DNA from: Deltaproteobacteria bacterium
GTDB lineage: Bacteria > Desulfobacterota > Desulfobulbia > Desulfobulbales > Desulfurivibrionaceae
Assembly (NCBI GenBank): GCA_021811385.1
Contig: JAJZPC010000011.1
Location: forward strand, 1-48,144
Reading direction: 5' to 3'
Length of the DNA: 48,144 bases
A model generated the notes under the pieces. It was not told the DNA's origin, ran no database searches, and saw only the letters and a program-made list of their open reading frames with translations. Made by a program: the position numbers and the translations under genes. The stretch's first letter is position 1, and each line of letters starts with the position of its first letter. Below are positions 24,479 to 46,302 of the stretch, piece after piece.

Positions 24479-24991
24479 GTGAACAACGTTGATCAACTTC
24501 TTGTCTTTGCTCTTGATGATCAATATTACGCCCTCCGGCTCGACGCGGTCGAGCGGGTGGTGCGCGCGGTCGAGGTGACCCCGCTTCCGGATGCGCCGGA
24601 AATCGTTCGCGGGATAATCAATGTGCAGGGGCGAATCGTTCCGGTCATCGACCTGCGCAGGTGTTTTCGCTTCCCCGAGATGGAAATCCGCCTGAGCGAT
24701 CAGTTCGTCGTTTCCTCGGCAATGCACCGGACGGTGGCGTTCGCGGTGGACGCAGTCCATGGCGTTGTCCATTGTCCCGAGGAGGCGGTTGTTCCCGTGG
24801 CGGAGATCCTTTCCGGGGTCGAAGCCGTCGAAGGGGTGGTGAAACTCACGGACGGCATGGTCCTCATCCCCGATATCGACAAGGTGTTCTCTCCGGGCGA
24901 CGAGACACGACTCGACGAGGGGTTGGCAGGGCTCGGCGGTTCCGGCCCGGAGGCCGGAGACAAACTCTCGGAGCGGGAAAATGGGTGTTAG
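24479..24991 (+). CDS. cheW: CheW-type coupling protein (first of two)
   Basis: 170 residues with one CheW domain (about 5-145): LLVFALDDQYYALRLDAVERVVRAVEVTPLPDAPEIVRGIINVQGRIVPVID is the usual receptor/kinase-coupling core, spanning residues 7-58. It has a GTG start with GGGGGAGG upstream. It is the first gene of the 14-gene cluster and overlaps cheR by 11 nt. In position it corresponds to WspB of the Wsp pathway. It presumably links one or more of the three receptors to the CheA-REC kinase. Confidence 0.9.
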   Translation: MNNVDQLLVFALDDQYYALRLDAVERVVRAVEVTPLPDAPEIVRGIINVQGRIVPVIDLRRCFRFPEMEIRLSDQFVVSSAMHRTVAFAVDAVHGVVHCPEEAVVPVAEILSGVEAVEGVVKLTDGMVLIPDIDKVFSPGDETRLDEGLAGLGGSGPEAGDKLSERENGC

Positions 24992-26501
24992 CGGACCCCA
25001 GGCAATGGATATCCCCGCAGGCGTGGCGGATGACCTGCTGGCGCGGTTCAGCGACTTCGTTGCCGCGCACACCGGGTTGCACTTTCCGCGCAAGCAGTGG
25101 CGCGCCCTTGCGCGGGGAATGGCTTGCGCCGCGCGGGAGTTCGGCTTCGAGGATCCGGAAGCATGCCTCCGATGGATCATGGCGTCGCCCCTCTCCCGGG
25201 AGCAGATCGAGATCCTGGCCCGTCACCTCACCGTGGGGGAGACGTATTTCCTGCGGGAAAAAAGGAGCCTGGAGGTTTTCGAGGAGGAGATCGTGCCGGA
25301 ACTGATCCGTACCCGCCAGGGAGACGAACGGCATCTGCGAATATGGTGCGCGGGGTGCTCGACGGGCGAGGAGCCCTTCTCCGTCGCCATCCTCCTCACG
25401 GCCATGGGCGCGGCGTTGCGGGAGTGGAATATCTCGATCCTCGGCACGGACATAAATCCCCATGCGCTGGGCAGGGGGGTGGAAGGGGTCTATGGCGAAT
25501 GGTCGTTCCGCGGTCCTCCGCAAGGCTTCCGGGATACATACTTCCGCCGGACCGGGGACGGCCGTTTCGAGATCCTTCCCCGGATCAGAAAAATGGTGAG
25601 CTTCTCCTATCTCAACCTTGCGGAGGACGTCTATCCCTCGCTTCTGAACAACACCAACGCCATGGACGTGATCTTCTGCCGCAACGTGCTCATGTACTTC
25701 ACCCCGGATCGGGCCAAAATGGTCGTCGAGCGGTTACACCGCTCCCTTGTCGACGGGGGCTGGCTCATTGTCAGCCCCTGCGAGGCCTCCCAATTCCTTT
25801 TTTCGCGGTTCAAGGCGATCAGTTTTCCCGATGCGATTCTGTATCGAAAAGAGGGCGCGGGCGTCGAAGGACAGGGGGCGGTTCCGAGGGATCGGGGTTC
25901 GGCCGAAGCCGGGCAATTTGTCCCCGCGCCCTTGCCTGCAGACATCCAATCACCGCCCCCGCCCCTCCGAGCCCCAACCTTTTGCTCCCCGCCCCCTGCT
26001 CCCCGCCCTCTGCCCCCATACGAAGCGGCCCTGGCCCTTTATGAACGGGGCTGCTATCCGGAAGCGGAGGAGAAGCTCGCCGTTTTGCTGGCGGTCAATC
26101 GGGAAGATGTCGAGGCGGCTGTTCTTCAATGCCGCGTCTATGCCAATCAGGGGAAATTGGCCGAGGCGCGGGAGCTGCTCGAGCAGGCGATCGATGGCGA
26201 CCGTCTCAAGGCGGGATTGCATTACCTCCGGGCCATGATCCTTCAGGAGCAGGGCGCCGCCGACGAGGCGGTCGTCTCGCTGAAACGGGCGCTCTACCTC
26301 GACCAGGATCTGGTGCTCGCCCATTTTTCCCTGGGCAATCTCGCCCTGCGGCAAGGAAAGATGAAGGAAGCGCGGAAACATTTTGCCAACACCCTCTCGC
26401 TCCTCGACCGATATGATCCCGCCGACATCCTCCCCGAATCCGAGGGGTTGTCGGCGGGGAGGCTCGGGGAGATCATGCGAACAACCGCTGTCAGCGCATA
26501 A
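24981..26501 (+). CDS. cheR: CheR methyltransferase with C-terminal TPR domain
   Basis: 506 residues. The SAM-dependent receptor-glutamate methyltransferase occupies about residues 10-285. It shows RHLTVGETYFLREKRSLEV, the SAM loop IWCAGCSTGEEPFSVA, ILGTDINPHAL, and FCRNVLMYFTPD. A Pro/Ala-rich linker (about 295-350) leads to TPR-like repeats (about 352-485: YEAALALYERGCYPEAEEKL). CheR-TPR is the WspC/FrzF-type architecture. None of the receptors ends in a CheR-tethering pentapeptide, so the TPRs may mediate docking. ATG 25005 (MDIPAG) is an alternative start. The linker is encoded by a C-rich repeat tract. Confidence 0.93.
   Translation: MGVSGPQAMDIPAGVADDLLARFSDFVAAHTGLHFPRKQWRALARGMACAAREFGFEDPEACLRWIMASPLSREQIEILARHLTVGETYFLREKRSLEVFEEEIVPELIRTRQGDERHLRIWCAGCSTGEEPFSVAILLTAMGAALREWNISILGTDINPHALGRGVEGVYGEWSFRGPPQGFRDTYFRRTGDGRFEILPRIRKMVSFSYLNLAEDVYPSLLNNTNAMDVIFCRNVLMYFTPDRAKMVVERLHRSLVDGGWLIVSPCEASQFLFSRFKAISFPDAILYRKEGAGVEGQGAVPRDRGSAEAGQFVPAPLPADIQSPPPPLRAPTFCSPPPAPRPLPPYEAALALYERGCYPEAEEKLAVLLAVNREDVEAAVLQCRVYANQGKLAEARELLEQAIDGDRLKAGLHYLRAMILQEQGAADEAVVSLKRALYLDQDLVLAHFSLGNLALRQGKMKEARKHFANTLSLLDRYDPADILPESEGLSAGRLGEIMRTTAVSA
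25954..26018 (-). other. G-quadruplex-prone tract in the cheR linker
   Basis: The plus strand has eight runs of three or more C in about 62 bp (25956-60, 62-65, 72-75, 87-90, 92-96, 26001-04, 06-08, 13-17), so the minus strand can form G-quadruplexes. Within it a 14-bp unit beginning TGCTCCCCGCCC occurs twice in tandem (from 25983 and from 25997). The unit length is not a multiple of 3. Confidence 0.6.
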
Positions 26502-26519
26502 ACCCAAGGGGTAACGCCG

Positions 26520-27167
26520 ATGCAAGAGACGAAAAGGGAAGCAGCATCGAGAAAGGCCTCATCCGCAAGGCAAGGCATGCCCGGGAGCCGGCATAGGTTT
26601 CGGCTGCGGGCGGCTCCACGGGAAGAGCGGCAGTTGAGCCCCGAGGAGCAGCGGCGGATCCTCAGGGAGAGGGCTCTGGCCCTGGCCAGGGAGCCGGAAA
26701 GGGAAGAGGCCGCGGCCGGTCTCGAGGTGGTCGAATTTCTCCTTGCCTACGAGCGGTACGGGATCGAGTCTTCCTATATCCGCGAGGTCTACCCGCTCAA
26801 GGATCTCACCCCTCTTCCCTGCACGCCGCCCTTTGTCCTCGGCATCATGAACGTGCGGGGAAAGATCCTTTCCGTCATCGACATCCGCAAATTTTTCGAC
26901 CTGCCGCAAAAGGGGCTGACCGACCTCAACAGGGTCATCATCGTGCATGACGATTTCATGGAATTCGGCATCCTGGCGGACGCCATCCTCGGGGTGCGGC
27001 TGATTCCGGTGAGGGAGCTGCAGCCGTCGCTTCCCACCCTGACGGAGGTCCGCGCCGACTATCTGAAGGGGGTGACCGAAGAGCGGCTGGTGGTGCTGGA
27101 CGGAGGGGCAATCCTCTCCGACCGGCGGATTGTCGTGCACGATGAAGCAGCCGGCGGCGCAGGATAA
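26520..27167 (+). CDS. cheW: CheW-type coupling protein with N-terminal extension (second)
   Basis: 215 residues. The basic, charged N-terminal extension (about 1-65; RQLSPEEQRRILRERALALAREPE) is followed by a CheW domain (about 67-208) with VVEFLLAYERYGIESSYIREVYPL and PFVLGIMNVRGKILSVIDIRKFF. A second, longer CheW next to a CheR-TPR is the WspD arrangement. The extension is predicted helical and may add a binding surface. The gene starts 18 bp after cheR and the first receptor follows 52 bp later. Confidence 0.88.
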   Translation: MQETKREAASRKASSARQGMPGSRHRFRLRAAPREERQLSPEEQRRILRERALALAREPEREEAAAGLEVVEFLLAYERYGIESSYIREVYPLKDLTPLPCTPPFVLGIMNVRGKILSVIDIRKFFDLPQKGLTDLNRVIIVHDDFMEFGILADAILGVRLIPVRELQPSLPTLTEVRADYLKGVTEERLVVLDGGAILSDRRIVVHDEAAGGAG

Positions 27168-27219
27168 AGGCTGGATTTTGAAAACCGAAAACCCATAACC
27201 GGTCCTCAGGGGGTATCCT

Positions 27220-28971
27220 ATGAAATGGTTTCTGAATCTTTCAACGCGGGCAAAAATCATCCTAAGCTTCGGGCTGATGCTTATCCTGCTGGCTGTCTCC
27301 ATCGTGACAGCCTATACGGCCATCAGGGCGATCAACGCGTCGCAACGGGAGCTGGTCCGGAGCGGCTTCGAGTCAACCCTGCACCTGGTGGAAATCCGGG
27401 CCGATCAGAACCGCACGAGAGCCCAGTTGCTGGAGATGATGGTGGCCGGTGACCGCTCCAAGCAGCAGGCGCTGGCACAGGATATCAAGGAGCGGTCCGC
27501 GGACATGGACCAAAAAGTCAAGGAACTCATGGAGCTGAAGAAAGACGATCCTGAATTCCTCTCGAAAATCCAGGAGTTGAATTCCATCCGGGAAGCATAC
27601 CGGAAAACGCGGGATGAAGAGATTTCTCTGGTTTTCACGGGGAAGAACGAGGAGGCCAGGCAGCTCGGGGTCAGCGTCCAGGAGGAACGTTACAACAGGA
27701 TACGCGCCCTTGCCAGGGAACTCGGCGGGCAGGAGATCGAGCAGGCCCAGCAGCAGATAGTCCGGTCCGAGCAACGGGCGAGGAGTTCGTTGATTATCTT
27801 CCTGGCCATAGGGATCAGCGCCTTTTTGTTCTGCATGGGAATGACGACAATTCTGACCAGGGTCATAGCCATCCCCCTTACCGAAATCACCCAAATTGCC
27901 GAACGGGTTGCCATGGGAGAATTGGACGTCACCATTCCGGCGGTCAACAGAGAGGACGAGGTGGGGATGCTGGCGCAGACCTTTCGCCGGATGGTGGGCA
28001 ATATCAGCGGAATGGCGGGCATGACGAAGCGGATTGCCGGAGGCGATCTTTCCGTAAGGATTACCCCCCAGTCGGAAAAGGATGTCATGGGAAATGCCCT
28101 GGGCATCATGGTGGATGGCCTGCGGGAGATAACGCGGGAGATGATTGAGGGGATCAACGTCCTTGCCTCCGCGGCCAGCGAGATCATGGCTTCCACGGCC
28201 CAGGTGGCTTCCGGCGCGACCGAGACCGCATCGGCGGTGAGCGAGACCACCTCCACCGTCGAGGAGGTGAAACAGACCGCCCAGGTGGCGAGCACAAAGG
28301 CGCGAAGCGTTTCCGAGGCCGCCCAGAATGCGGTTCGGATGGCGCAGGGCGGCAGGAGGGCGGTGGAGGAATCGGTCGCCGGGATGGGCCGGATTCAGGA
28401 GCAGGTGGCATCCATCGCCGAGAGTATCGTCAAGCTCTCCGAACAGAGCCAGACCATCGGCGAGATCATCACCACGGTCAACGATCTGGCGGAGCAGTCG
28501 AATCTGCTGGCGGTCAACGCCGCCATCGAGGCGGCCAAGGCGGGGGAGCAGGGAAAGGGTTTCGCGGTGGTGGCCCAGGAGGTGAAAAGCCTGGCGGACC
28601 AGTCCAAGGAAGCGACCGCCCAGGTGCGGACGATCCTCAACGACATCCAGAAGGCGACCAACGCGGCGGTGCTGGCCACCGAACAGGGGAGCAAGGCGGT
28701 CGAGTCGGGGGTGAAACAGTCGCGGGAGGCGGGGGAGGCGATCCGGCAGATGGGAGAAAACATCGAGGAATCGGCCCAGGCGGCGCTTCAGATCGCGGCG
28801 TCAAGCCAGCAGCAGCTCACCGGCATGGATCAGGTGGTCCTGGCCATGGAGAATATCAAGCAGGCCAGCGAGCAGAACGTCGCCGGCGCCAAGCAGGTGG
28901 ACGCCACCGTGCAGAATCTTCACGAGCTGGGGCAGAAGCTGAAAGGGTTGGTGGAACAGTATAAGGTGTAG
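27220..28971 (+). CDS. Methyl-accepting chemoreceptor 1 (periplasmic 4-helix sensor)
   Basis: 583 residues. TM1 is at about 12-35. A four-helix-bundle-type periplasmic domain occupies about 36-188, TM2 190-213, a HAMP domain 214-264 and a second HAMP-like unit 265-303 (TKRIAGGDLSVRITPQSEKD). The cytoplasmic signalling domain runs 304-583, about 280 residues or 40 heptads, which fits the 40H class used by Wsp-type receptors. The hairpin tip [20 protein letters not shown] is canonical. It ends LVEQYKV with no CheR-docking pentapeptide. Its signalling domain is nearly identical to those of the next two receptors. Confidence 0.93.
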   Translation: MKWFLNLSTRAKIILSFGLMLILLAVSIVTAYTAIRAINASQRELVRSGFESTLHLVEIRADQNRTRAQLLEMMVAGDRSKQQALAQDIKERSADMDQKVKELMELKKDDPEFLSKIQELNSIREAYRKTRDEEISLVFTGKNEEARQLGVSVQEERYNRIRALARELGGQEIEQAQQQIVRSEQRARSSLIIFLAIGISAFLFCMGMTTILTRVIAIPLTEITQIAERVAMGELDVTIPAVNREDEVGMLAQTFRRMVGNISGMAGMTKRIAGGDLSVRITPQSEKDVMGNALGIMVDGLREITREMIEGINVLASAASEIMASTAQVASGATETASAVSETTSTVEEVKQTAQVASTKARSVSEAAQNAVRMAQGGRRAVEESVAGMGRIQEQVASIAESIVKLSEQSQTIGEIITTVNDLAEQSNLLAVNAAIEAAKAGEQGKGFAVVAQEVKSLADQSKEATAQVRTILNDIQKATNAAVLATEQGSKAVESGVKQSREAGEAIRQMGENIEESAQAALQIAASSQQQLTGMDQVVLAMENIKQASEQNVAGAKQVDATVQNLHELGQKLKGLVEQYKV

Positions 28972-29032
28972 TTTTCAATGATGGGTTTCGGTGTTTGCGT
29001 TGCGCCTCGACATGAGCCCAGGAGGAATATCC

Positions 29033-31000
29033 ATGCTTCGGAACATGAAAATCGGCCGGCGACTGCTTCTCGGATTCGGCGTGGTCGTTCTTTTTCTCGT
29101 TGCGGTCGGGGTCGTCGCCATCCTGAAGATCGGAACGATCCAGCAACTCCAGCAGACCTTTTACCAACATCCCTTCACGGTGGTCCACGCCCTGGATTCC
29201 GCCCATGTCCATATCATGGAAATGCAGCGCGATATGCAGGCCATGCTCCTCGCCGAGGGGCGGCAGGAACGGGAAGCAGCCATCGCCTCGCTCGACAAGA
29301 GCGAAAAGGCGGCCTACGGGAATCTCAAACTGGTGCGGGAGCGTTTCCTCGGCGACAAGCAGCTCGTGGTGGAAATCGTGCAGGAGCTCGATGTCTGGAA
29401 GGAAAAACGCGCCGCGACCATCGCCCTGCTGCGGGCCAACAGGGCGGCCGAAGCGGCCGGGTTGGACAGGGAACAGACCAGGGGGATCGTTGCGAACATA
29501 GAGGGGAAGATGCGTGAGATCGAAAAATTCGCCCTGAACAAGGCTGCCGAGCTTTCCAGGGAGTCCGGGAGGATCGAGGAGCAGGCCGTTCGCTTTACCT
29601 ATTCGCTGCTCGCGGCGGCGGCCATGCTGGCGGTGCTCCTGGCCCTGTTGATAACGCGCGGCGTGACAAAGCCCCTCAACAGGGCGGTCGAGATGGCGGA
29701 CAGACTGGCGTTGGGGGATGTTGCCGTCGAGGTGGGAACATCCTCCAACGACGAGACGGGACGCTTGCTGCGCTCGATGGAAAAGATGCTGCGGCAGTTC
29801 AAGGAAACGGCCCAGGCCGCAAGCCGGATAGCGGTCGGCGACCTCTCCGTCGCCATGGTCCCCAGGTCGGAGCAGGACGTCATGGGAAAAGCCCTGGCCT
29901 CGATGCTGCAGCAATTCAGGAGGACGGCCGAGGTTGCGACCCGGCTGGCGGCCGGCGATCTTTCCGTCGACGTGGTTCCGCAGTCCGAGCGAGACGCCAT
30001 GGGGAACGCCCTGGCCTCGATGGTGCAGCAGTTCAGGAGCACGGCCGAGCTCGCGACCCGGCTGGCGGCCGGCGATCTTTCCGTCAGCGTGGTCCCGCGG
30101 TCCGGGGAAGACGTCATGGGGAACGCCCTGAAGAACATGGTGGAGGGACTCCGGGAGATAACCCGGGAGTTGATCGAGGGGATGAATGTCCTCTCCTCGG
30201 CGGCCAGCGAGATCATGGCCTCCACGGCCCAGGTCGCCTCCGGAACCACCGAGACCGCGGCGGCGGTGAGCCAGACCACCTCCACCGTCGAGGAGGTGAA
30301 GCAGACCGCCCAGGTGGCGAGCGCAAAGGCGCGAAGCGTTTCCGAGACCGCCCAGAAGGCGGTTCAGGTGGCCGGGGAAGGGAGAAAGGCGGTGGAGGAA
30401 TCGATCACCGGCATGAGCCGGATCCAGGAGCAGGTGGAAGCCATCGCCGAGAGCATCGTCAAGCTCTCCGAACAGAGCCAGGCCATCGGCGAGATCATTG
30501 CCACGGTCAGCGATCTGGCGGAGCAGTCGAACCTGCTGGCGGTCAACGCCGCCATCGAGGCGGCCAAGGCGGGGGAGCAGGGGAAGGGGTTCGCGGTGGT
30601 GGCTCAGGAGGTGAAAAGCCTGGCGGACCAGTCCAAGGAAGCGACCGCCCAGGTGCGGATGATCCTGGGCGATATCCAGAAGGCGACCAACGCGGCGGTG
30701 CTGGCCACCGAACAGGGGAGCAAGGCGGTCGAGTCGGGGGTGAAACAGTCGCGGGAGGCGGGGGAGGCGATCCGGCAGATGGGGGAAAGCATCGAGGAAT
30801 CGGCCGAGGCCGCGCTCCAGATCGCGGCGTCGAACCAGCAGCAGCTCACCGGCATGGATCAGGTGGCCCTGGCCATGGAGAATATCAAGCAGGCCAGCGA
30901 GCAGAACGTCGCCGGCAGCAGGCAGGTAGAGGCCACCGTGCAGAATCTCCATGAGCTGGGGCAAAAGCTGAAGCAACTGGTGGAACAGTACAAGGTGTAA
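29033..31000 (+). CDS. Methyl-accepting chemoreceptor 2 (poly-HAMP)
   Basis: 655 residues. TM1 is at about 11-32, the helical periplasmic sensor at about 33-186 and TM2 at 187-207. Four HAMP-type units follow (about 208-372). The last three repeat with a strict period of 39 residues ([30 protein letters not shown]). The signalling domain is about 373-655, again about 40 heptads, ending LVEQYKV. ATG 29033 has GGAGGA at 6 nt; the open frame from TTG 28991 runs through that site and is rejected. Poly-HAMP arrays are known in soluble receptors such as Aer2. Here the array may rectify or lengthen the signal path. Confidence 0.93.
29822..30172 (+). repeat. Three tandem 117-bp HAMP-coding repeats
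   Basis: Units begin at 29822, 29939 and 30056, exactly 117 bp (39 codons) apart. The second and third share long near-identical DNA (for example CGGCTGGCGGCCGGCGATCT in both), so the expansion is recent. A more diverged unit precedes them at about 29699. Confidence 0.75.
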
Positions 31001-31048
31001 AGCCGTTCCGGGCGAGCACTCGAAACAGATGTCGCGGAGGGAGGAAAA

Positions 31049-32656
31049 ATGCACGAATCCGGCCAGAAACCAGAAGTAACGAATATTTTTCTCCTGGGAA
31101 TCATTCTTCCCGTTGTCGGAAGCATGATCAGCCATCAGTATCTGGTTGATTGGAATTTCGCCAATATCCCATTCCATTCCGCAATCGAGGCCCTGGGCAC
31201 CTTCGCGGCCCTCTCCCTGGCCACGCTGATTCTGATGCTGGAGAAAAACAGGGAGGGCTCCGCGCACTACTTCTGGATTGCGTGCGGACTGATTGCCATG
31301 GGGATTCTGGACGGATTTCACGCCTCTGTTTCTCCCGGTATTTCGTTTGTATGGACGCACAGTCTGTCAACCCTGGCCGGAGGGTTTTTCTTTGCCCTTA
31401 TCTGTTTGGCCGGGATGGACACCAAAACACACCCGATACTTGCCTTTCCCTTACTCATAGCGGTCGGCACCGTTATAGCAGGAGGATTCCTGGTGGCGAA
31501 TCCCGATGCGCTGCCGGCGGCGATGGTCCAGGGAGACTTCTCTTCTTCGGTAAAATTGGCCAGCATCCTGGGAGGGGTCTTCTTTCTTGCGGCGGCGATA
31601 CAGTTCATCGCCCGGTACCGGATCAGCGGAAGCGTCGATGATTTTTTGTTTTCGAATCTCTGCCTCCTTTTCGCTTTTTCAGGCTTGTTGTTCCAGTTTT
31701 CACAATTGTGGGACGCCGACTGGTGGTTCTGGCATCTGTTGCGAGTGACCGCCTTCTTCGTTGCCATCCTGATAGTTTTCCAATGGTTCAATCTGGGAGA
31801 GAGGCTCAAGAAGATATTGCGAGAGATCTCCGAGGGCATAACCGTACTTGCCTCCGCCGCCAGCGAGATCATGGCCTCCACGGCCCAGGTCGCCGCGGGC
31901 GCAACCCAGACGGCGGCGGCGGTGAGTGAAACCACCTCCACCGTCGAGGAGGTGAAACAGACCGCCCAGGTTGCCAGCACAAAGGCGCGGAGCGTCTCCG
32001 AGGCCGCCCAGAATGCACTCCAGGTGACCCTTCGCGGCAGGAAAGCGGTGGAGGAATCGATTGCCGGGATGAGCCGGATCCAGGAACAGGTGGAAGCCAT
32101 CGCCGAGAGCATCGTCAAGCTCTCCGAGCAGAGTCAGACCATCGGCGAGATCATCTCCACGGTCAACGACCTGGCGGAGCAGTCGAATCTGCTGGCGGTC
32201 AATGCCGCCATCGAAGCGGCCAAGGCGGGGGAGCAGGGAAAGGGGTTCGCGGTGGTGGCCCAGGAGGTGCGGAGCCTGGCGGAACAATCGAAGGAGGCCA
32301 CCGCCCAGGTGCGGGCGATCCTGGGCGACATCCAGAAGGCGACCAATGCGGCGGTGCTGGCCACCGAACAGGGGAGCAAGGCGGCCGAGACCGGGGTGAA
32401 ACAATCGCAGGAGGCGGGGGACGCGATCCGGCAGATGGGGGAGAGTATCGAAGGGTCTGCGCAGGCGGCGCTCCAGATCGTGGCGTCGAGCCGGCAGCAG
32501 CTCACCGGCATGGACCAGGTGGCCCTGGCCATGGAGAATATCAAGCAGGCCAGCGAGCAGAACGTAGCCGGGAGCAAGCAGGTGGAAGCCACGGTGCAGA
32601 ACCTCCACGAGCTGGGGCAGAAGCTGAAAGGACTGGTGGGGCAACACAAGGTATGA
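31049..32656 (+). CDS. Chemoreceptor 3 with multi-TM N-terminal sensor, no HAMP
   Basis: 535 residues. The N-terminal 250 residues contain about eight hydrophobic helices (around 12-27, 52-65, 74-90, 105-121, 131-150, 171-187, 199-217, 228-247). A conserved-looking loop reads [20 protein letters not shown]. This looks like an integral-membrane input module of the MASE3-like type seen in kinases and cyclases, but I cannot assign a family. The signalling domain (256-535, exactly 280 residues) follows directly with no HAMP. It nearly matches receptors 1 and 2 and ends LVGQHKV. AGGGAGG precedes the ATG. The ligand is unknown; a lipophilic or membrane-state signal is possible. Confidence 0.9.
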
Positions 32657-32684
32657 TTTCGCGAAACTTGCTTGTGAGGTTTCC

Positions 32685-35084: not shown

Positions 35085-35159
35085 GGGCCGGGCTGTGTGC
35101 CGGCGATTGGTGGGGAACGGATCCCAGCCCCGCCCTACAGTGGAGACCAGGGGAAAAAG

Positions 35160-36239
35160 ATGATCAAGGTGTTGGTTGTCGATGATTCACCGGTTGTCAG
35201 GGAGTTTCTGGCCCGGATCTTCAGTTCCGACCCGGAACTTATGGTGGCCGGGACCGTCGGCAGCGGCAGCGAGGCGATCGAGGCCGTGCGGCGGAAGATG
35301 CCCGACGTGATCACCATGGACGTGCAGATGCCGAAGATGGACGGCTACGAGGCCACCCGCACCATCATGGAAACGAATCCCGTCCCGATCGTGATTGTCT
35401 CGGGGAGCGTCGATCCGAATGAGGTCACCACGACATTCCGCGCCATGGAAGCGGGGGCGCTGGCCGTGGTCTCCCGGCCGACGGGCATGGGGCACCCGGA
35501 TCACGAGAAAACCGTGAAGGAGCTGATCAAGACCGTAAAGCTGATGTCCGAGGTGCGGGTCGTCAGGAGGTGGCCCCGGCCGGCTCCGGCGGCAAAGCTT
35601 CCCTTGTTCCCTGAAAAGGTGGCGGGGCAGGAGGCGCCGGAGGTGAGTCTCGTCGCGATAGGCGCCTCCACGGGGGGGCCCATCGCCATCCAGCGGATAC
35701 TGGCCTCCCTGCCGCGGGATTTTTTCCCTGCGGTGCTCATTGTCCAGCATATGGCCAGAGGGTTCATCGCAGGATTCACCGAATGGCTCGCCCAATCCTC
35801 GGCTATCCCGGTCAAAATCGCGGTCCAGGGGGAGCCGCTCCATTCCGGCTGCGTCTATGTCGCGCCGGACGGATTTGACATGGGGGTGGGAACGGACGGA
35901 CGGATAGCCCTCAGAAAGGGCGACAACAACAACGGGCATTGCCCATCGGTTTCCCATCTTTTTCGCTCGATAGCCCACAGCCATGGCAATAATGCGGTGG
36001 GCGTGCTTCTCACCGGGATGGGGAAGGACGGAGCGGCGGAGCTTCGGCTGATGCGGGAGCATGGGGCGGTAACCATAGCCCAGGACGCGGAGAGTTCAAT
36101 CGTCTACGGCATGCCGGGCGAGGCGGCAAAAATCGAGGCGGCGGAATACATCCTTCCCCTGGATCGGATTCAGCCCCTTCTCGTCCGCCTGGTGAAGCCG
36201 GGGAGAGGGGTAGGCAAGACAGATCGAAACGCAGGCTGA
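35160..36239 (+). CDS. cheB: CheB receptor methylesterase / glutamine deamidase
   Basis: 359 residues. The receiver domain (1-120) has D54 in ITMDVQMPKMDGYEAT. The linker leads to the methylesterase domain (about 165-345) with catalytic S170 in GASTGGP, the histidine in VQHMARGF, and the aspartate region LLTGMGKDGAAEL. Phosphorylation by CheA normally relieves inhibition by the receiver. It corresponds to WspF. The open frame extends to GTG 35097, but MIKVLVVDDSP at ATG 35160 is the natural family start. With CheR-TPR it completes an adaptation system. No CheD, CheC or CheZ is present. Confidence 0.95.
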   Translation: MIKVLVVDDSPVVREFLARIFSSDPELMVAGTVGSGSEAIEAVRRKMPDVITMDVQMPKMDGYEATRTIMETNPVPIVIVSGSVDPNEVTTTFRAMEAGALAVVSRPTGMGHPDHEKTVKELIKTVKLMSEVRVVRRWPRPAPAAKLPLFPEKVAGQEAPEVSLVAIGASTGGPIAIQRILASLPRDFFPAVLIVQHMARGFIAGFTEWLAQSSAIPVKIAVQGEPLHSGCVYVAPDGFDMGVGTDGRIALRKGDNNNGHCPSVSHLFRSIAHSHGNNAVGVLLTGMGKDGAAELRLMREHGAVTIAQDAESSIVYGMPGEAAKIEAAEYILPLDRIQPLLVRLVKPGRGVGKTDRNAG

Positions 36240-36256
36240 GGAAAGGATTTTAGATC

Positions 36257-37710
36257 ATGACTACAGCACAGACAGCCGGAAACGGCAATACAATCCTGGT
36301 CGTCGAAGACAGCCCGACCCAGGCGGAAGAGTTGCGGCACATGCTGGAAAAACACCATTACCGGGTAGCCTCGGCCGGCAACGGACGGGAAGCCTTGCCC
36401 CTGCTGGAAAAGGAGAGGCCGTTCACCGTCATCAGCGACATCATGATGCCGGAGATGGACGGTTACGAGCTGTGCCGCCGGATCAAGGGGGACGGGAGAT
36501 TCCATGGTATTCCGGTCATCCTTCTCACCTCCCTGTCCGCCCCCGAGGATGTCATCATGGGGCTTGAGTGCGGCGCCGACTATTTTATCATGAAACCGTA
36601 CAACGAGCGGTTTCTCCTTTCCCGCCTGCAGCACATCCAGGCCAACCGCCAGCTCGGCGAGCAGGCGGCGCGGATGGGGCTGGAGATCTTCTTCCGGGGA
36701 AAGAAGTACTTCATCAACTCGGACCGGCTGCAGATCCTCAACCTGCTCCTGTCCACCTACGAAACCGCCATCCAGAAAAACCAGGAGCTGACCGACGTTA
36801 CCCGTGAATTGAAAACGCTCAACGAGCAGCTGGCGGAAAACATGGCCGAGCTGAAGGGGAAAAACCGGGAACTCCGGGAACTCAACGTGGAGCTTAAATG
36901 GCAGCGGGGGGCGGCGCAGGAGTCGAAACTTCAGGCGGAGCGGGCAACCCGGGCCAAATCCGATTTTCTCGCCAACATGAGCCACGAACTGCGAACCCCC
37001 CTCAACTCCATCATCGGTTTTTCAGAGGTGCTCCAAGACGAGATGTTCGGCCGGCTCAACGAGAAGCAACAGCAGTATGTCAAAATATCCTGGTAAGCGG
37101 CAAACACCTCCTGGAACTCATCAATGATATCCTGGATCTGGCCAAGGTCGAATCGGGCAAGATGGAACTCGAGCCGGCCATCGTCAACCTGCGCAATACG
37201 CTGGCGACCTCGCTCGCCATGCTGAAGGAGAAGGCGTTGAAGCACGGCCTGAAGCTGAGCATGGAACTCCCCGCCGAGGCGGAGATCGAGCTGATCGCGG
37301 ATGAAAGAAAGCTCAAACAGATCATGTTCAACCTTCTGAGCAATGCGGTCAAGTTCACGCCGGACGGGGGAAGTGTCTGCGTCAGCGCGCGCAGGATTTC
37401 CGGTCTTGACTTGCCGGGTTCCTGTTCGGCGCCGGAATCCGGCAACCGGAAAGGCGATGGAGATTTTATAGAAATCTCCATCGCGGATACCGGCATCGGC
37501 ATCGCTCCGGAGCATCTCCCGAAACTTTTCAAGGCGTTCAGCCAGGTCAGCTCTCCGTACAGCAAGGGGTATGAGGGAACCGGCCTCGGCCTGGCGCTGA
37601 CCAAGCAGATGGTGGAGCTGCACGGCGGCAGGGTATGGGTCGAAAGCGAGGTCGGCAAGGGGAGCAGGTTCACCTTTGCAATTCCGCTCAGTCAATCAAG
37701 GCAGGAGTGA
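36257..37710 (+). pseudogene. REC-histidine kinase, frameshifted in this sequence
   Basis: Frame 1 (36257-37096) encodes a receiver (D61 in [14 protein letters not shown]), a coiled coil and HisKA with H243 in [20 protein letters not shown]. It stops just after QQYVK. The next frame continues the same domain without a gap as [20 protein letters not shown]. It then encodes the HATPase domain (NLLSNAVKFTPDGG, DTGIGIAP, GTGLGLAL) to a stop at 37710. One missing A in the AAAA run at 37082-37085 (AAAAA expected) explains the break. The restored protein would be about 484 residues. A sequencing or assembly error in the homopolymer, or a recent inactivating deletion, is likelier than programmed frameshifting, because the site does not fit a -1 slippery heptamer. 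It pairs with the receiver gene at 37714. Confidence 0.85.
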
Positions 37711-37713
37711 AAC

Positions 37714-38094
37714 ATGGGCAGGAAGATACTCCTTGTGGAAGACAATGAATTGAATCGGATCCTCCTCAGGGATGTGTTGGAGTATTACGGGTACGAGGTG
37801 ATCGAGGCGGCCAACGGCGCCGAGGGAGTCGAACGGGCGCGGGAGCACTCGCCCGACCTGATCTTTCTCGACATCCAGATGCCGGTCATGGACGGCTTCG
37901 CCGCCATAGGGGTGCTGAGGAACGAGCCTGCCCCTGGTCCGGCGAAGATCATCGCCCTCACCTCCTTTGCCATGCGGGGGGACCGGGAACGGATCATGGC
38001 CGCCGGGTTCGACGGCTACCTGACGAAACCCATAGATACCCGGGAGCTGCCGCGCATGGTTCGGGAATGGCTGGGGGAGGAAGGGGAGGGATGA
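37714..38094 (+). CDS. Stand-alone receiver (CheY-like) protein A
   Basis: 126 residues, a single receiver domain. The acidic pocket is ED at 9-10, the phosphoacceptor D53 in LIFLDIQMPVMDGF, the switch threonine is in IIALTSFAM, and the lysine is in LTKPIDTRELP. No DNA-binding or enzymatic output is attached. It begins 3 bp after the frameshifted kinase and overlaps the following kinase by 4 nt (ATGA). It is a clear paralogue of the receiver at 39690-40088. It may be the diffusible output of the CheA pathway or the partner of the adjacent kinases. Confidence 0.92.
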   Translation: MGRKILLVEDNELNRILLRDVLEYYGYEVIEAANGAEGVERAREHSPDLIFLDIQMPVMDGFAAIGVLRNEPAPGPAKIIALTSFAMRGDRERIMAAGFDGYLTKPIDTRELPRMVREWLGEEGEG

Positions 38095-39665
38095 ATATCC
38101 GGGCCAAGATCATCTCCGGTTATCTGTTGATCGGCCTGATCATGGCCTTGATCGGCACGTTCATCCTCCTCCGTCGAGCCCCTTATGCCGCGGAGGCCTT
38201 CATGCTCATTCTCTCCGTTGCCATCGGCCTCTGCGTTTACCGGGCTATCTCCCGCCCTGGCCGGCTCGTCGATACGGTCGGCGGGGATATCGGCGAGCCG
38301 GCCAGGGCGTTTGAGGCCATGCGCAAGAATCTGAAGGAGCAGATCGGCGCGCTCAATGCGGAGGTTGCCGCGCGCCGCGAGAGCGAGGAAACGATCCGGA
38401 GGCTTTTCAACGTTTGTTTCGAAGCGATTTTTCTTCTGGACACCGAAGGGAACATCATCATTGCCAACGACTCCCTGGCCGGGCGACTCGGCGTTCCCGT
38501 CGACGGGATCGTCGGCAAAAACATTTTTGAACTCCTGCCCGCCGCTCTGGCTGCCGGCCGCAAGGCGCACCTGGCGGAGGTTGTCCGTAACGGGAAACCG
38601 CTCCACTTCGAGGACGAGCGGGAGGGGAGAATCATCGATAACTCGCTCTATCCCTTTGTCGACAGCGAGGGCAAGGTGGAGCGCGTGGCTGTTTTCTCAA
38701 TGGATGTCACGGAGAGGAGGCAGGCCGAGAAGAGACTCATGGAGGTCTGCCGGGAGATGGACGCGCATGCGATCGCCCAGGAGCGGGAAAGGTTTGCCGC
38801 CGGGCAGGAGAGACTCAAGGAGGTTTACCTGGAGCTGGAGGAGCATGCGGCCGCCTTGGAGCGGGAAAGGTCTGCCGCCCAGCAGGCGCGCCTGCTGGCG
38901 GAGACCGCCAATCAGGCCAAGGCGGAGTTTCTCGCCAATATGAGCCACGAATTGCGCACCCCGCTCAATGCCGTCATCGGCTTTGCCGACGTGCTGAGGG
39001 ACGGGGTCGGAGGCAGTCTTTCGGAGCAACAGACGTGTTATGTGGACAACATCCGCACGAGCGGCCGACACCTTCACCGGATGATCGAGGACATGCTCGA
39101 CCTTGCCCAGATGGGAACCGGGACCATAGAGCTGCGGATCATCGCCTTTCACCTGCGGGACGTCCTGCGCGAGGAGCTTTCCCGGTTCAGGGAGAAGGCG
39201 GCTTCCCGCGGCATCTCCCTCTCCCTAGAAATGGAGCCCGAGGTTGAACGGGAGATCCGGAGCGATCCGGAAAAACTGAGGCAGATCCTCCACAATCTTC
39301 TCTCCAATGCGGTGAAGTTCACGCCCGACGGAGGGAGCGTGCGTGTCGCCGCGCGGCCGGCGGGCGACGCAGGGGAAGTTCATGGGGCGTCCCTGCCGCC
39401 CGGCAAGGATTTCATCGAAATTTCCGTGGAGGACACAGGCATCGGCATCAGGGCGGAAGACATGTCGAAGATATTCCAGGATCTGACCCAGCTCGAATCC
39501 CCCTACCGCAAGACATATGGGGGGGCGGGGCTCGGGCTGGCGCTGGCGAGAAAGCTTGTGGAGCGTCTGGGAGGCGTCATCCGGTTGGAGAGCGAGGTCG
39601 GCAAAAGAAGTCGCTTTACCGTTATTATCCCGGCGGAGAGCGACGCAGAGCAGGGTGTTTCCTGA
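38091..39665 (+). CDS. Membrane PAS-domain histidine kinase
   Basis: 524 residues from ATG 38091, which overlaps the preceding stop. Two closely spaced transmembrane helices (about 7-27 and 34-51) leave almost no periplasmic domain. A PAS domain (about 101-212; RLFNVCFEAIFLLDTEGNII ... VFSMDVTERRQAE) follows. A coiled coil with two similar 33-residue heptad segments (around 216-265) leads to HisKA with H286 in [16 protein letters not shown]. The HATPase has NLLSNAVKFTPDGG, DTGIGIRA and GAGLGLALA. It closely resembles the upstream frameshifted kinase in its C-terminal half. Sensing is probably cytoplasmic through PAS. Confidence 0.92.
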   Translation: MNIRAKIISGYLLIGLIMALIGTFILLRRAPYAAEAFMLILSVAIGLCVYRAISRPGRLVDTVGGDIGEPARAFEAMRKNLKEQIGALNAEVAARRESEETIRRLFNVCFEAIFLLDTEGNIIIANDSLAGRLGVPVDGIVGKNIFELLPAALAAGRKAHLAEVVRNGKPLHFEDEREGRIIDNSLYPFVDSEGKVERVAVFSMDVTERRQAEKRLMEVCREMDAHAIAQERERFAAGQERLKEVYLELEEHAAALERERSAAQQARLLAETANQAKAEFLANMSHELRTPLNAVIGFADVLRDGVGGSLSEQQTCYVDNIRTSGRHLHRMIEDMLDLAQMGTGTIELRIIAFHLRDVLREELSRFREKAASRGISLSLEMEPEVEREIRSDPEKLRQILHNLLSNAVKFTPDGGSVRVAARPAGDAGEVHGASLPPGKDFIEISVEDTGIGIRAEDMSKIFQDLTQLESPYRKTYGGAGLGLALARKLVERLGGVIRLESEVGKRSRFTVIIPAESDAEQGVS

Positions 39666-39689
39666 ACCCCTGCAACACAGGAGTCTGAG

Positions 39690-40088
39690 ATGGCGAAAAA
39701 AATCCTGGTGGTGGATGACGTGGCGCAGAACCGGATGCTCCTGAAGGACGTGCTCAGGTATTTCGGCTACGAAGTCGTGGAGGCGGGCGACGGAGAAGAA
39801 GGAGTAAGGATGGCGCGGGAGGAACTCCCCGATCTGATCCTCATGGACATGAACATGCCGGTCATGGACGGCTACACCGCGCTGCGCATCCTGCGCAGCG
39901 ACCCGCTCACGCGGGGGCTCAGGGTGGCGGCGATCACCTCCTTTGCGATGGGGAACGACAACGGGAGCGTGTTCGCCGCCGAGGCCGACGGCTATATCTC
40001 CAAACCGATCGACATCAGGGAACTTCCGGCCATGATGGAGAAGATCCTGGCCGGGGAGGGGAAGATGGCGGGAGAGGAAGGAAAATAA
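39690..40088 (+). CDS. Stand-alone receiver (CheY-like) protein B
   Basis: 132 residues, one receiver domain: DD at 9-10, phosphoacceptor D53 in [16 protein letters not shown], switch residue in AAITSFAMG, lysine in [17 protein letters not shown] precedes the ATG. It is paralogous to receiver A, with shared spacing and the motifs GYEV-EA and SFAM. With the PAS kinase it repeats the kinase-then-receiver order seen just upstream, which suggests tandem duplication of a two-gene unit. Confidence 0.92.
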
Positions 40089-40183
40089 AGGCGGCCGGGG
40101 CAAGGCTGCCGGTTTATCAATTTGGCGAACACCTTCTCGATATCCGAGGAGTGTTCCGGCTGGACAGATCATGGGGGAGTGCG

Positions 40184-41704
40184 ATGGAGGCGGCAAAGCC
40201 GAGGATTCTCTGTGTGGATGATGAACCGTTCAATCTCGACCTTCTCGAGGCGTTGCTCGTGCCGCGAAATTACGAGGTGATCAGATCGACCAATGGCCGG
40301 GACGCTCTCCTGCTGGTCGCGTCGCAAAAGGTGGATCTTGTGCTCCTCGATGTCATGATGCCGGAGCTCGACGGCTTCGAGGTCTGCCGGAGAATCAAGG
40401 AAAATGAGCAGCACCGCTCCATCCCCGTGGTCATGATAACCGCCTTGACCGCAAAAGGGGATCGGGTCGCAGGCATCGAGGCGGGGGCGGACGACTTCAT
40501 GTCCAAACCCATCGAGCCGACCGAGGTTCTGGCGCGCGTGCGGATGCTGCTTAAGGTGAAGGGGCTGGACGACCGTCTGCGCCACGCATATACGCATATC
40601 AACCATCTGACCACTTGCGGCGAGCAGATCGCCAAGGCCTTTGATCCCCTGCATTTTGATTTTCTGGAGAATATGGACATTATCGTCCGCCAGCTCATGC
40701 TCGTGGCGGCGACGGAGGCGGAACGTCCCGGCCTTGTTATCGTCGGCGTTTCGGACGTCGACGGACCGAGGCAGTACCGCTACGAAGTCGACGGCGGCGT
40801 GGTGCGGCGCGAAGCCCTGCGATCCGACAGCCTCCACTGTCCGGCCCGGAAGGAGGATCACGAACCGGTCACGACTTTCTCGAACGGCAACGGTCTGGAG
40901 ACGTCGGACAATCAGCCGGTCATCAAGGCCATTGAATCGCTCGGCAGGACCGTCCACAACATCGTCAGCTACCACAGCAACGAGTTGTACGTGTACGCGC
41001 TCAACTACGACAGGGACGTGACCGCCCATGACGCCGCGGCCTTGAAGGCCCTTGTCGTGCAGACCTTGTTCCTCAGGTCGCTTTCGGGCCAGGTGAGGGA
41101 CACGGAAAACGCCTTCGACTATATGGTCCATGCCCTGGCGCGGGCGGCGGAGGCGAACGACGAGGATACGGGCGATCATATCATCCGGGTCGGTGAATAC
41201 TGCGCCGTCATCGCCAGGGCCATAGGCATGCCGGACAGTTTTTCCTCCCTTATCCGCCTCCAGGCGTCGATGCACGACGTGGGCAAGATACACATCCACC
41301 CCGACATCCTGAGGAAATCCGGCAAATTGACGCCAGAGGAATGGGGCGTGGTGCGGCAGCATCCGCTCATCGGCGGCAGGATCCTGGGTGACCATGTGCG
41401 GCTGGGGCTGGCAAGCGAAATCGCGCTCTCGCACCATGAACGCTGGGACGGGAGCGGGTATCCGCATGGGCTCCGGGGGGAACGGATTCCCATGGGCGGC
41501 AGGATAATGACCATTGCGGATCAATATGACGCCTTGCGGAACATGCGGGCCTACAAACCCGCATTTGATCACGAGACGACGTGCCGGATCATCACGGAGG
41601 GCGATGGAAGGACCATGCCCCAGCACTTCGATCCGCGGGTATTGCAGGCATTCAGGGAGACAGCGCCACAGCTCGAGGAAATCTACGAAAAAATGAAAGG
41701 ATAA
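40184..41704 (+). CDS. REC-HD-GYP cyclic-di-GMP phosphodiesterase
   Basis: 506 residues. The N-terminal receiver has D56 in [17 protein letters not shown] middle region (about 130-300) is of undetermined type, possibly a sensor or dimerisation module such as DUF3369. The HD-GYP domain (about 310-505) shows H332, HD at 364-365 in [12 protein letters not shown]393 in [13 protein letters not shown] at 417-418, and DGSGYPHGL with GYP at 425-427. The metal ligands and GYP signature look intact, so c-di-GMP hydrolysis is expected. ATG 40184 follows GGGGGAG; the GTG at 40151 is less likely. This is the best candidate output of the chemosensory pathway. Confidence 0.93.
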
Positions 41705-41731
41705 CAGTCCACATCGCAAAAGAGGTCTGTC

Positions 41732-43057
41732 ATGACATTAGGAGACATCTCCGGCATCAAGCCGCCCACGGTATTCATCGTGGACGACGATCAGGGGTCG
41801 CGGCAATTATTGGACGATATCCTTTCCGGCAAGGGATATGCAATCCGCTGCCTGTCCAGCGGCGAACTTGCCCTCCAGGCAGCCCTGGACGAGCCGCCCG
41901 ATCTGATTCTGCTCGACGTGATGATGCCGGACATGGACGGTTTCGAGGTCTGCCGGCTCCTCAAGGAGAATCCGGCGACGAGGTTTATTCCGGTCGTGAT
42001 GGTAACCTGTCTCAACGAGAAGGCGATGCGGCTGAAAGGGATAGCCGCCGGCGCGGACGATTTCATCAGCAAGCCCATCGATACCACGGAGATCCTGTTG
42101 AGGACGCGCAACCTTCTGCTGGTGAAGCAGTACCACGACTTCCTCAAGGAACACGCCGGGATACTTGAACAGCAGGTCCGGCTGCGCACGGAAGAGCTTG
42201 AAAAGGCCATCGCTGAACTCAAGTCAACCCAGCAACAGATGGCGCAGCAGGAGAAGATGGCCATGGTCGGCCAGCTGACCGCGGGAATCGCCCATGAAAT
42301 CAACAATCCGATCGGTTTCATCGCCAGCAATGTCGGGTCGTTCGGCAAGTATTGCGAAAAGCTGTTGATATTCATCGAGGCGCAGCAGGAAGCGCTGCTT
42401 TCCGGACAGCCGGACCGGCGGCAGGCCGATCTGGTCCTGGAGCAGCGCCGTCAGCTCAAGATAGACTATATCATGAAGGATATCCCCGAGATGATCGTGG
42501 AAACCCAGGAGGGAGTAGACCGCATAAAAAGCATCGTCAGGGATCTCAAGTGTTTCTCGCGCGTGGATGAATCGGAACAGAAGCTTTCGGACATCAACCA
42601 ATGCCTGGAAAGCACCCTGAACATCGCCAAGAACGAATTGAAGTACAAGGCAAAGGTTCGGCGGGAGTATGGTGAATTGCCGCAGATTCTCTGTTATCCG
42701 CAACAGCTGAATCAAGTCTTCATGAACCTGCTGGTCAATGCGGCCCATGCCATCGACTCCCAAGGGGAGATCACGGTGCGGAGCTGGAGCGCCGGGGAAA
42801 GGATATTTGTTTCGATCAGCGACACCGGGTGCGGTATCCCCGCACAACAACTTTCGCGCATCTTCGAACCGTTCTTCACAACCAAGGAGACTGGGAAGGG
42901 GACGGGGCTGGGGCTCTCCATCAGCAACGAAATCGTCAGGAACCATGGCGGGGAGATCATGGTCGAAAGCGAACCGGGCAAGGGAAGCACCTTTACCGTG
43001 TCCATTCCCGTGTCCCGGCCGAATTTGCCGCAAAAGGCGGCGGAGCGGCAAGCCTGA
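41732..43057 (+). CDS. REC-histidine kinase (soluble)
   Basis: 441 residues. The N-terminal receiver has D62 in LILLDVMMPDMDGFEV. A coiled coil (about 135-175; LEQQVRLRTEELEKAIAELK) leads to a HisKA-type domain with H188 in LTAGIAHEINNPIGFIASN, the NtrB/ZraS-like subgroup. The HATPase shows NLLVNAAHAI, DTGCGIP and GKGTGLGLS. With no transmembrane segment, it would be controlled through its own receiver, a common way to chain two-component steps. It is the last gene of the cluster, and a strong terminator lies 49 bp downstream. Confidence 0.93.
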   Translation: MTLGDISGIKPPTVFIVDDDQGSRQLLDDILSGKGYAIRCLSSGELALQAALDEPPDLILLDVMMPDMDGFEVCRLLKENPATRFIPVVMVTCLNEKAMRLKGIAAGADDFISKPIDTTEILLRTRNLLLVKQYHDFLKEHAGILEQQVRLRTEELEKAIAELKSTQQQMAQQEKMAMVGQLTAGIAHEINNPIGFIASNVGSFGKYCEKLLIFIEAQQEALLSGQPDRRQADLVLEQRRQLKIDYIMKDIPEMIVETQEGVDRIKSIVRDLKCFSRVDESEQKLSDINQCLESTLNIAKNELKYKAKVRREYGELPQILCYPQQLNQVFMNLLVNAAHAIDSQGEITVRSWSAGERIFVSISDTGCGIPAQQLSRIFEPFFTTKETGKGTGLGLSISNEIVRNHGGEIMVESEPGKGSTFTVSIPVSRPNLPQKAAERQA

Positions 43058-43105: not shown

Positions 43106-43136
43106 AAACCCGGCAAGAGCTGTTCTTGCCGGGTTT
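43106..43136. terminator. Bidirectional intrinsic terminator, cluster end / ssb end
   Basis: AAACCCGGCAAGA (43106-43118) and TCTTGCCGGGTTT (43124-43136) form a perfect 13-bp stem around GCTGT. Short T-rich tails lie on both sides (TTTATA rightward; TTTTCTTAT on the other strand). It separates the convergent REC-kinase and ssb genes. Confidence 0.88.
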
Positions 43137-44936: not shown

Positions 44937-45072
44937 GGTATAGGCATCCTCGGTTGCGTGTCGGTTGCGGCACCATACCGCAAAGAACCGGGTCGGCCAA
45001 CGAGAAAGTTCTTGACCCATGGTCGAAAACCGCACTACTATTCACTAGGTGTTTATACCTATCTTGTTGTGC

Positions 45073-45086
45073 TTGACTTATGTCAG
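45073..45086. promoter_or_regulatory. FNR/CRP-family-like dyad upstream of hybO
   Basis: TTGACttatGTCAG is a 5-4-5 dyad with one mismatch, in the format of FNR/DNR-type sites. It lies about 90 nt before the hybO ATG. Two further dyads are nearby: TTGACCcatGGTCgAA (45012-45027) and TAGGTgtttatACCTA (45046-45061). The regulator is not identified. Confidence 0.3.
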
Positions 45087-45174
45087 GTTTTTATGGTGCA
45101 ATGAGGGCAATCTTGTGAAGTTGCGCTGTTATTGGAAATGGGAGAATGCCCCACACACGCAAACGAGGCGAACG

Positions 45175-46299: not shown

Positions 46300-46302
46300 G
46301 GT

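Follow-up and report, generated by a model that had tools for sequence, protein, structure and literature searches.

The stretch of DNA analysed here (the window) comprises positions 1 to 48,144 of contig JAJZPC010000011.1 (C13 among our contigs), 48,144 nucleotides in total, from a Deltaproteobacteria bacterium (GenBank assembly GCA_021811385.1) whose genome of 2.6 Mb in 108 contigs is about 75% complete. It carries a chemosensory operon in which the genes for CheA and its accessory proteins are followed by sensor kinases, receivers and a gene for an HD-GYP protein. Fifteen open reading frames (ORFs), all on the plus strand and arranged head to tail, occupy positions 24479-43057, as read from the ORF list, Pfam matches and translations. 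They are listed below together with the stem-loop that follows them (MCP, methyl-accepting chemotaxis protein; TM, transmembrane segment):

24479..24991, +, CheW, coupling protein (PF01584, 1.4e-30)
24981..26501, +, CheR methyltransferase with C-terminal TPRs (PF01739, 1.5e-45; TPR matches within residues 347-474)
26520..27167, +, second CheW, with an N-terminal extension of ~65 residues (PF01584, 5.2e-28, residues 70-201 of 215)
27220..28971, +, MCP1: 2 TM, 4HB sensor, HAMP, 40H-length signalling domain (Pfam, hydropathy, tip-to-end length)
~28991..31000, start not fixed, +, MCP2: 2 TM, 4HB sensor, HAMP, 40H-length signalling domain
31049..32656, +, MCP3: ~7 TM (hydropathy), no HAMP found, 40H-length signalling domain
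32685..35084, +, CheA: Hpt, HATPase, CheW and C-terminal REC domains; P2 domain not detected (Pfam)
35097..36239, +, CheB methylesterase (PF01339, 1e-58; REC, 1.2e-21)
36257..37096, +, k1a: CheA-tracking receiver (REC, beta-hairpin, long helix) and start of HisKA
36898..37710, +, k1b: HATPase half of kinase k1, in another frame (homologue match only from residue ~61-63)
37714..38094, +, recA: single-domain receiver (best PDB match DivK, 1m5t, 7.8e-25)
38067..39665, +, hk2: PAS-HisKA-HATPase sensor kinase (Pfam)
39690..40088, +, recB: single-domain receiver adjoining the HD-GYP gene
40151..41704, +, HD-GYP protein: REC (PleD-like), predicted GAF-like middle domain, HD-GYP; HD and HHExxDGxGYP motifs intact
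41732..43057, +, hk3: REC-kinase (Pfam)
43106..43136, 13-bp stem-loop at the convergent operon end; T-run on the minus strand only (ssb side)

Neighbouring genes lie -28 to +62 bases apart (taking 29030 as the start of mcp2), the exception being a 199-base overlap within the split kinase k1. This gene order, based on strong domain matches in 15 adjoining ORFs without a chance model, agrees with that given in an earlier interpretation made from the DNA letters (the sequence-only reading): CheW, CheR-TPR, a long CheW, three MCPs, CheA-REC and CheB, followed by kinases, receivers and REC-HD-GYP. Its statement that the cluster contains no flagellar gene or GGDEF protein was likewise borne out. Pfam found no flagellar gene in the cluster, the single FlhA match of the genome lies on another contig, and none of the 23 GGDEF matches of the genome falls on the window's contig (the remaining genome matches were 4 EAL, 13 HD-GYP and 13 CheW-domain). 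It had also placed a terminator at the operon end; the 13-bp stem is present, but its T-run fits the convergent ssb gene, and the plus strand has no clear U-tract.

Class and distribution of the chemosensory proteins

In all three MCPs, 140 residues (20 heptads) separate the tip of the signalling hairpin from the C-terminus, which corresponds to 40H length by the heptad rule that we take to link this distance to the 40H class. The 4HB sensor of MCP1 and MCP2 is a common domain, and the ~7-TM sensor region of MCP3 gave no good Pfam match. MCP1 and MCP2 share 89% of residues over their signalling halves (the last 230 residues) and agree at 88% of third codon positions there, which suggests a recent duplication or gene conversion. 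A Geobacter che locus (L042:3648-5252) encodes a protein that matches MCP3 over its full length at 74%, the highest identity among the che genes of that locus.

Relatives of the operon were taken as the best 80 of 449 loci confirmed by tblastn, picked by CheA similarity. The phylogeny of 110 CheA cores was a quick tree with SH-aLRT (approximate likelihood-ratio test) support only and no bootstrap, in which several long branches were flagged; it was rooted by choice on the CheAs of E. coli and of C7 and C17 of the source genome, and the duplicate or partial rows L119, L123, L111 and L109 were dropped. In this tree, the window's CheA falls into a 10-row clade (SH-aLRT 99) with rows from Nitrospirae, Geobacteraceae, Desulfuromonadaceae and Deltaproteobacteria and from the relative G053. 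A node with support 98 spans 86 rows, the window and 85 others, and leaves outside the C7, C17 and C26 CheAs of the source genome as well as that of E. coli, which we take to be of class F7. The sequence-only reading had proposed a CheA phylogeny as a check. The CheA of an unannotated Burkholderia locus with wsp gene order (L152) belongs to a separate 9-row clade (support 100).

The window combines several features of the class named for alternative cellular functions (ACF): a CheA with a C-terminal REC domain and no P2 detected, a CheR-TPR, 40H MCPs, and multidomain regulators in the form of REC-kinases and REC-HD-GYP. CheR-TPR proteins in clusters with multidomain response regulators have been tied to the ACF class (Munoz-Martinez 2012, PMC3447774), and REC-bearing CheAs, mostly without P2, are reported mostly from classes F3, F5, ACF and Tfp (type IV pili) (PMC10542144). 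The data support an ACF-kind chemosensory system that is not part of a flagellar cluster, with the class name resting on these features and the CheA tree carrying no class-labelled references. An ordinary flagellar chemotaxis operon with extra regulators might be considered in view of the FlhA gene and the further CheA and CheW genes of the genome, but the REC domain of CheA, the TPRs of CheR, the lack of flagellar genes found in the cluster and the CheA tree leave it almost no likelihood, and we rejected flagellar chemotaxis on gene content and the tree.

Among 58 genomes (the source genome included), CheAs of at least 43% identity were found, besides the window's own, in G053 (two), G009, G031, G057 and G001, with weaker ones further down, such as that of G017 (39%). 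The copy of the CheA cluster in G009, a member of the same genus, is 55% identical, and together with this distribution of CheAs it indicates that the spread of the cluster is sporadic. Members of the CheA family are also present in bins labelled Methanoperedens, ANME-2, Methanosarcinales and Methanomicrobiales (L014, L016, L018, L021, L085), where transfer or mis-binning is possible, and in the named isolate Methylomonas koyamae R-45383 (L060). In the window itself, no compositional signature of transfer was seen, G+C being 61% within the operon and 59% to either side of it. None of the 1009 plasmid records searched reached 60% identity, and the best of the full-length matches listed was at 42%.

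An extended receiver behind cheB

In relatives of the operon, the gene behind cheB carries a distinctive receiver, in which the REC domain is followed by a beta-hairpin and a long helix. We surveyed 86 regions, comprising the 80 loci, the window and five relatives (L154-L158), with L159 and L196 outside the count. The set was not de-duplicated (the CheA cores of L059/L156, L020/L026, L056/L072 and L064/L067 are identical or nearly so), and many regions end at contig ends. As the gene behind cheB we counted the first ORF to follow on the same strand, no more than 1 kb away, in which a signalling domain was detected. Domains were called by phmmer with seeds from the window and its own genome, so that weakly matching kinases may have been scored as REC only; the survey covered outputs other than EAL, for which the seed set was empty. 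A signalling ORF behind cheB was readable in 72 regions and lacking in 14. It encodes a REC-kinase in 53 cases, REC only in 11, REC-GGDEF in four (L054, L055, L056, L072), REC-HD-GYP in three (L022, L049, L082) and CheR in one. Over the whole gene run, HD-GYP occurs in 19 of the 86 regions and GGDEF in 10 (both in 2), with neither in 59. Two Planctomycetota loci (Kuenenia; L054, L055) have an HD-GYP gene between cheW and cheA and two GGDEF genes with extended receivers behind cheB, thus holding both enzyme signs within one operon.

The extended receiver was present in 71 of the 72 readable regions, the window included. A profile built from the first 205 residues of the 53 kinase fusions covers REC and ~75 further residues in each of these 71 (lowest score 241.6 bits), and the 18 receivers outside the build (11 REC only, 3 HD-GYP, 4 GGDEF) also match over the extension. 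The window's extended receiver, located on k1, scores 299 bits. The extension has a motif near KYFI-x-S-x-R-x-QIL-x-LLLSTYE and is modelled as a beta-hairpin and long helix, with a predicted local distance difference test score (pLDDT) of 63-90 by blocks. It has no clear solved counterpart among the best 60 of 258 PDB sequences, which mostly end at or near REC; the longest match to the profile (1kgs, to position 179) belongs to another regulator family.

Genome-wide searches point to the same tie with CheA. The 58 genomes yielded seven matches of at least 147 bits that cover the extension, in six genomes, and all seven lie directly behind a cheA-cheB pair of the window's CheA family; the next match, at 94 bits, covers REC only. 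No second extended receiver was seen in the window's own, incomplete genome, where the next match scores 86 bits. Weaker matches in G031, G044, G033 and G056 (74-93 bits) reach position 187-206 in pairwise alignments, but the profile covers just their REC part, and the 11-14 kb fetched around them showed no CheA. The receivers of the Azospirillum, Methylobacterium, Burkholderia and E. coli loci were likewise matched over the REC part only. From this genomic linkage, we infer that the extended receiver is the dedicated partner of CheA.

In the window, k1 (36257-37710) is split by a frame change in its HisKA region, and its homologues, for example that of L009, are uninterrupted. At all four loci compared, a single homologue aligns first with k1a (up to residue 275) and then directly onward with k1b (from residue 61-63), at 59-73% identity. 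The frame change may reflect either a sequence error or a recent mutation. A decaying system, in which it cuts CheA off from its output in this organism, would agree with these consecutive halves of an intact homologue and with the single extended receiver seen in the genome. Such decay appears very improbable, however: the identity retained by both halves is what one would expect of a gene that was never broken or that was under selection up to the very recent past, a sequence error could explain the split, and no other frame break was seen among the ORFs of the operon.

The HD-GYP protein and its kinase-receiver unit

An AlphaFold model of the HD-GYP protein (pLDDT 84) consists of REC, a GAF-like domain and HD-GYP. 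The residues of the HD and HHExxDGxGYP motifs are invariant in all 12 full-length homologues (window included), whose identity to the protein of the window is 49-57%. The spacer between REC and HD-GYP had no Pfam match even at E 10; that it is GAF-like is suggested by the model and by the best Foldseek hit, 4mcw (382 alignment columns, 361-residue chain, template-modelling score 0.48 by query, root-mean-square deviation 6.5), which we take to contain a GAF domain. Three residues before the first metal-site histidine, 4mcw has a glutamate, presumably a third-metal ligand, which aligns with an Asp in the window protein, so that cyclic di-GMP (c-di-GMP) is no more than the most likely substrate among the cyclic dinucleotides.

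The receiver of this protein has PleD chains as its best PDB matches and reaches 115 bits over the REC part only, compared with at least 241 bits for all 71 receivers behind cheB. For 11 of these 12 homologues, again counting that of the window, the nearest signalling ORF on the upstream side encodes a single-domain receiver and is preceded by a kinase gene, the exception being L195, which has neither. Eight of the 12 lie within che clusters of the window's CheA family, and in three (L192, L194 and L193, a short contig with 4.5 kb upstream only) the kinase and receiver are present without any CheA on the stretch examined. Listed by genome, no CheA was found on the stretches examined near the full-length homologues of G012, G013, G008 and G045, and none of at least 43% was listed in these genomes, an absence that is soft because the genomes are 85-91% complete. 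The idea of the HD-GYP protein as an obligate CheA output is weakened by these four genomes. The neighbours of the CheA-free kinase-receiver-HD-GYP unit of G012 (L192:3074-12383) include genes for an MCP and a GGDEF protein.

A tree of 40 HD-GYP rows (the long-branch rows L012_22144, L082_13216 and L007_1192 were dropped, and L163 is labelled unlinked, though it equals the che-linked gene of L196) places the che-linked proteins in several separate lineages, at least five by count, and che-linked and che-free copies are mixed in the window's own lineage. HD-GYP outputs thus seem to have joined the window's che family repeatedly, and the window's HD-GYP seems to travel as a kinase-receiver-HD-GYP unit.

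These data bear on two other ways of connecting the HD-GYP protein. The sequence-only reading had put it simply in the place of WspR, driven directly by CheA as WspR is by WspE, such that receptor activation lowers c-di-GMP. Its gene indeed lies inside the operon with intact motifs, its receiver is second only to that of k1 among the window's receivers, and the CheA-tracking receiver is itself fused to HD-GYP behind cheB in three of the 72 regions. Nevertheless, we consider direct control unlikely as the main route in the window: the CheA-tracking receiver sits on k1, that of the HD-GYP protein lacks the extension, and homologues with a kinase and receiver occur without CheA on the stretch (L195 having neither). 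It is also conceivable, but still less probable, that hk2 and hk3 run the HD-GYP protein independently of CheA, with the che genes and the unit merely co-transcribed. The position of hk2 before recB and the HD-GYP gene, the mixed lineage and the presence of the unit in G012, G013 and G008 would be consistent with such independence, whereas the che genes and HD-GYP occur together in loci of Nitrospirae, Geobacteraceae and Desulfuromonadaceae and in a same-genus relative (L009, L011, L012, L013, L020, L155), a linkage given without a statistical test.

A proposed two-tier route and its relation to known systems

The reading that we prefer, with a probability of roughly 0.5, is an ACF-kind operon with a two-tier output, in which CheA acts on the REC-kinase k1 and k1 on the receivers and the HD-GYP protein. 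MCP1-3 would control CheA together with the two CheWs, CheR-TPR and CheB would set adaptation, and phosphate would probably be drained by CheA's own REC domain. CheA would signal to its dedicated receiver, the hairpin-helix-extended REC of k1, which in its phosphorylated state would switch the k1 kinase on or off. k1, and probably hk2 and hk3 as well, would then act on recA, recB and the PleD-like receiver of the REC-GAF-HD-GYP protein, whose hydrolysis of a cyclic dinucleotide (most likely c-di-GMP) would change as a result. The gene content, the intact motifs, the tie between receiver and CheA, the swapped outputs and the kinase-receiver-HD-GYP unit without a nearby CheA were computed; every phosphotransfer step, its sign, the substrate and the signal we infer. 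Phosphorylation of the REC-kinase may either activate or inhibit it, so that c-di-GMP could rise or fall when the receptors are activated, the sequence being compatible with both directions. In Rhodospirillum centenum, CheA3 phosphorylates a REC domain (REC1) of the hybrid kinase CheS3, thereby inhibiting it, and only CheS3 phosphorylates CheY3 (PMC3868531). With a CheA that turns a REC-kinase off in that Che3 system, the earlier expectation that receptor activation lowers c-di-GMP is not derivable.

Several points weigh against the two-tier route. Linkage to CheA in the genome does not by itself prove phosphotransfer, and the receiver search in the 58 genomes scored the best 52 first-look candidates in most of them. 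Moreover, a more distant CheA (G017, 39%; locus L159) is followed by a receiver without the extension, matched over the REC part only. If the split of k1 is real, the proposed first step would be broken in this organism, with hk2, hk3 and the HD-GYP gene intact. The HD-GYP protein may have hk2 rather than k1 as its kinase, since recB, not recA, adjoins its gene and hk2 precedes recB. Finally, the fusions of the extended receiver to HD-GYP indicate that direct CheA control of an HD-GYP protein probably occurs in the family, and it could coexist with the two-tier route here.

Looking beyond the window, a broader reading is plausible, though somewhat less likely than the preferred one: in a widespread chemosensory family, one dedicated CheA receiver may serve as a universal plug onto which a kinase, GGDEF or HD-GYP is swapped, such that closely related sensors raise or lower c-di-GMP or use a second-tier kinase. 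The window would then be the two-tier form, ending in a unit of kinase, DivK-like receiver and REC-GAF-HD-GYP whose movement does not depend on CheA. Among chemosensory routes to c-di-GMP, Wsp has been studied best, and in the window's family a sensor of that kind is coupled to enzymes of opposite effect by a single conserved receiver. Its natural pairs of receiver-GGDEF, receiver-HD-GYP and receiver-kinase suit the study of how the sign of an output is wired. As a practical rule, the likely target of CheA is the extended receiver behind cheB, not any receiver-enzyme of the operon.

The sequence-only reading had called the operon Wsp-like, which holds for its core parts. The Wsp system of Pseudomonas shares with the window CheW, CheR-TPR, another CheW, an MCP with 4HB and 40H, CheA-REC and CheB. 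Its genes are ordered MCP-CheW-CheR-CheW-CheA-CheB, with the MCP gene first, whereas the window has CheW-CheR-CheW-MCP x3-CheA-CheB, with the MCPs after the second cheW. The window also lacks a WspR-type REC-GGDEF and has another output receiver, and its CheA lies outside the clade of the one Wsp-order CheA included. We rejected a true Wsp system on gene order, the missing WspR-type gene and the CheA tree. The individual Wsp features are documented for WspA, for which the 4HB sensor domain found in MCP1 and MCP2 has been named (PMC8846402) and which is of the 40H class (PMC2577667), and for WspC, a CheR-TPR (PMC3447774).

A second likeness, taken from sequence and not from the cell cycle, is to DivK-PleD of Caulobacter, given the best solved matches of recA and of the HD-GYP receiver. 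As in the divK-pleD gene layout of Caulobacter, the window has a kinase, a small receiver and a c-di-GMP enzyme in a row, but the enzyme is an HD-GYP and not a GGDEF protein, and PleD has two REC domains.

The domain entry cd00077 presumably denotes the HD superfamily. It appears as 'metal-dependent phosphatase' among the outputs described for ACF clusters, beside histidine kinases (HK, about 40%), GGDEF and EAL (PMC3447774). Like the window, these clusters combine CheR-TPR with multidomain response regulators, but the term 'HD-GYP' occurs 0 times in the main text of that study, and we found no description there of a shared extended receiver or kinase-receiver-HD-GYP unit (PMC3447774). Che3 of R. 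centenum likewise pairs a REC-bearing CheA with a REC-kinase that it targets and a single-domain receiver downstream (PMC3868531), a gene layout that recurs in the window as CheA-REC, the frame-split k1 and recA. Unlike in the window, we found no HD-GYP in the Che3 account (PMC3868531). The Azospirillum locus, taken as a Che3 relative, is without the receiver extension.

Further links between chemosensory proteins and c-di-GMP enzymes have been drawn. RpfG of Lysobacter is, as we assume, an HD-GYP protein. Its complex with WspR is said to bridge two separate systems (PMC9758175). A link between a chemosensory protein and the HD-GYP family has been reported for P. aeruginosa PA2573 (an MCP) and PA2572 (REC-YN-GYP), but PA2572 is a variant without detectable activity, and its partner is an orphan MCP (PMC3411652). 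Compared by description only, EsnABCD is a case of a 40H CheA and CheW acting with a c-di-GMP synthase (PMC5585712), Geobacter group beta che clusters have a preliminary link to the extracellular matrix, and those of group alpha, like the window, carry an HD-domain gene, whose product is described as stand-alone and without other domains, unlike the window's (PMC2577667). Diverse outputs of ACF clusters and the presence of HD-type genes in che clusters have thus been described before (PMC3447774, PMC2577667). Two elements are apparently new as far as the literature searched shows, namely the extended receiver that is shared by genes with different outputs and the two-tier HD-GYP unit; in these freely readable main texts, without supplements, we found neither an extended CheA receiver with swapped outputs nor a REC-HD-GYP named in an ACF operon.

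On the right flank of the operon (43797-47253), a gene of the spore-photoproduct-lyase family lies on the minus strand, and genes for a NiFe hydrogenase small subunit and an iron-sulfur protein lie on the plus strand.

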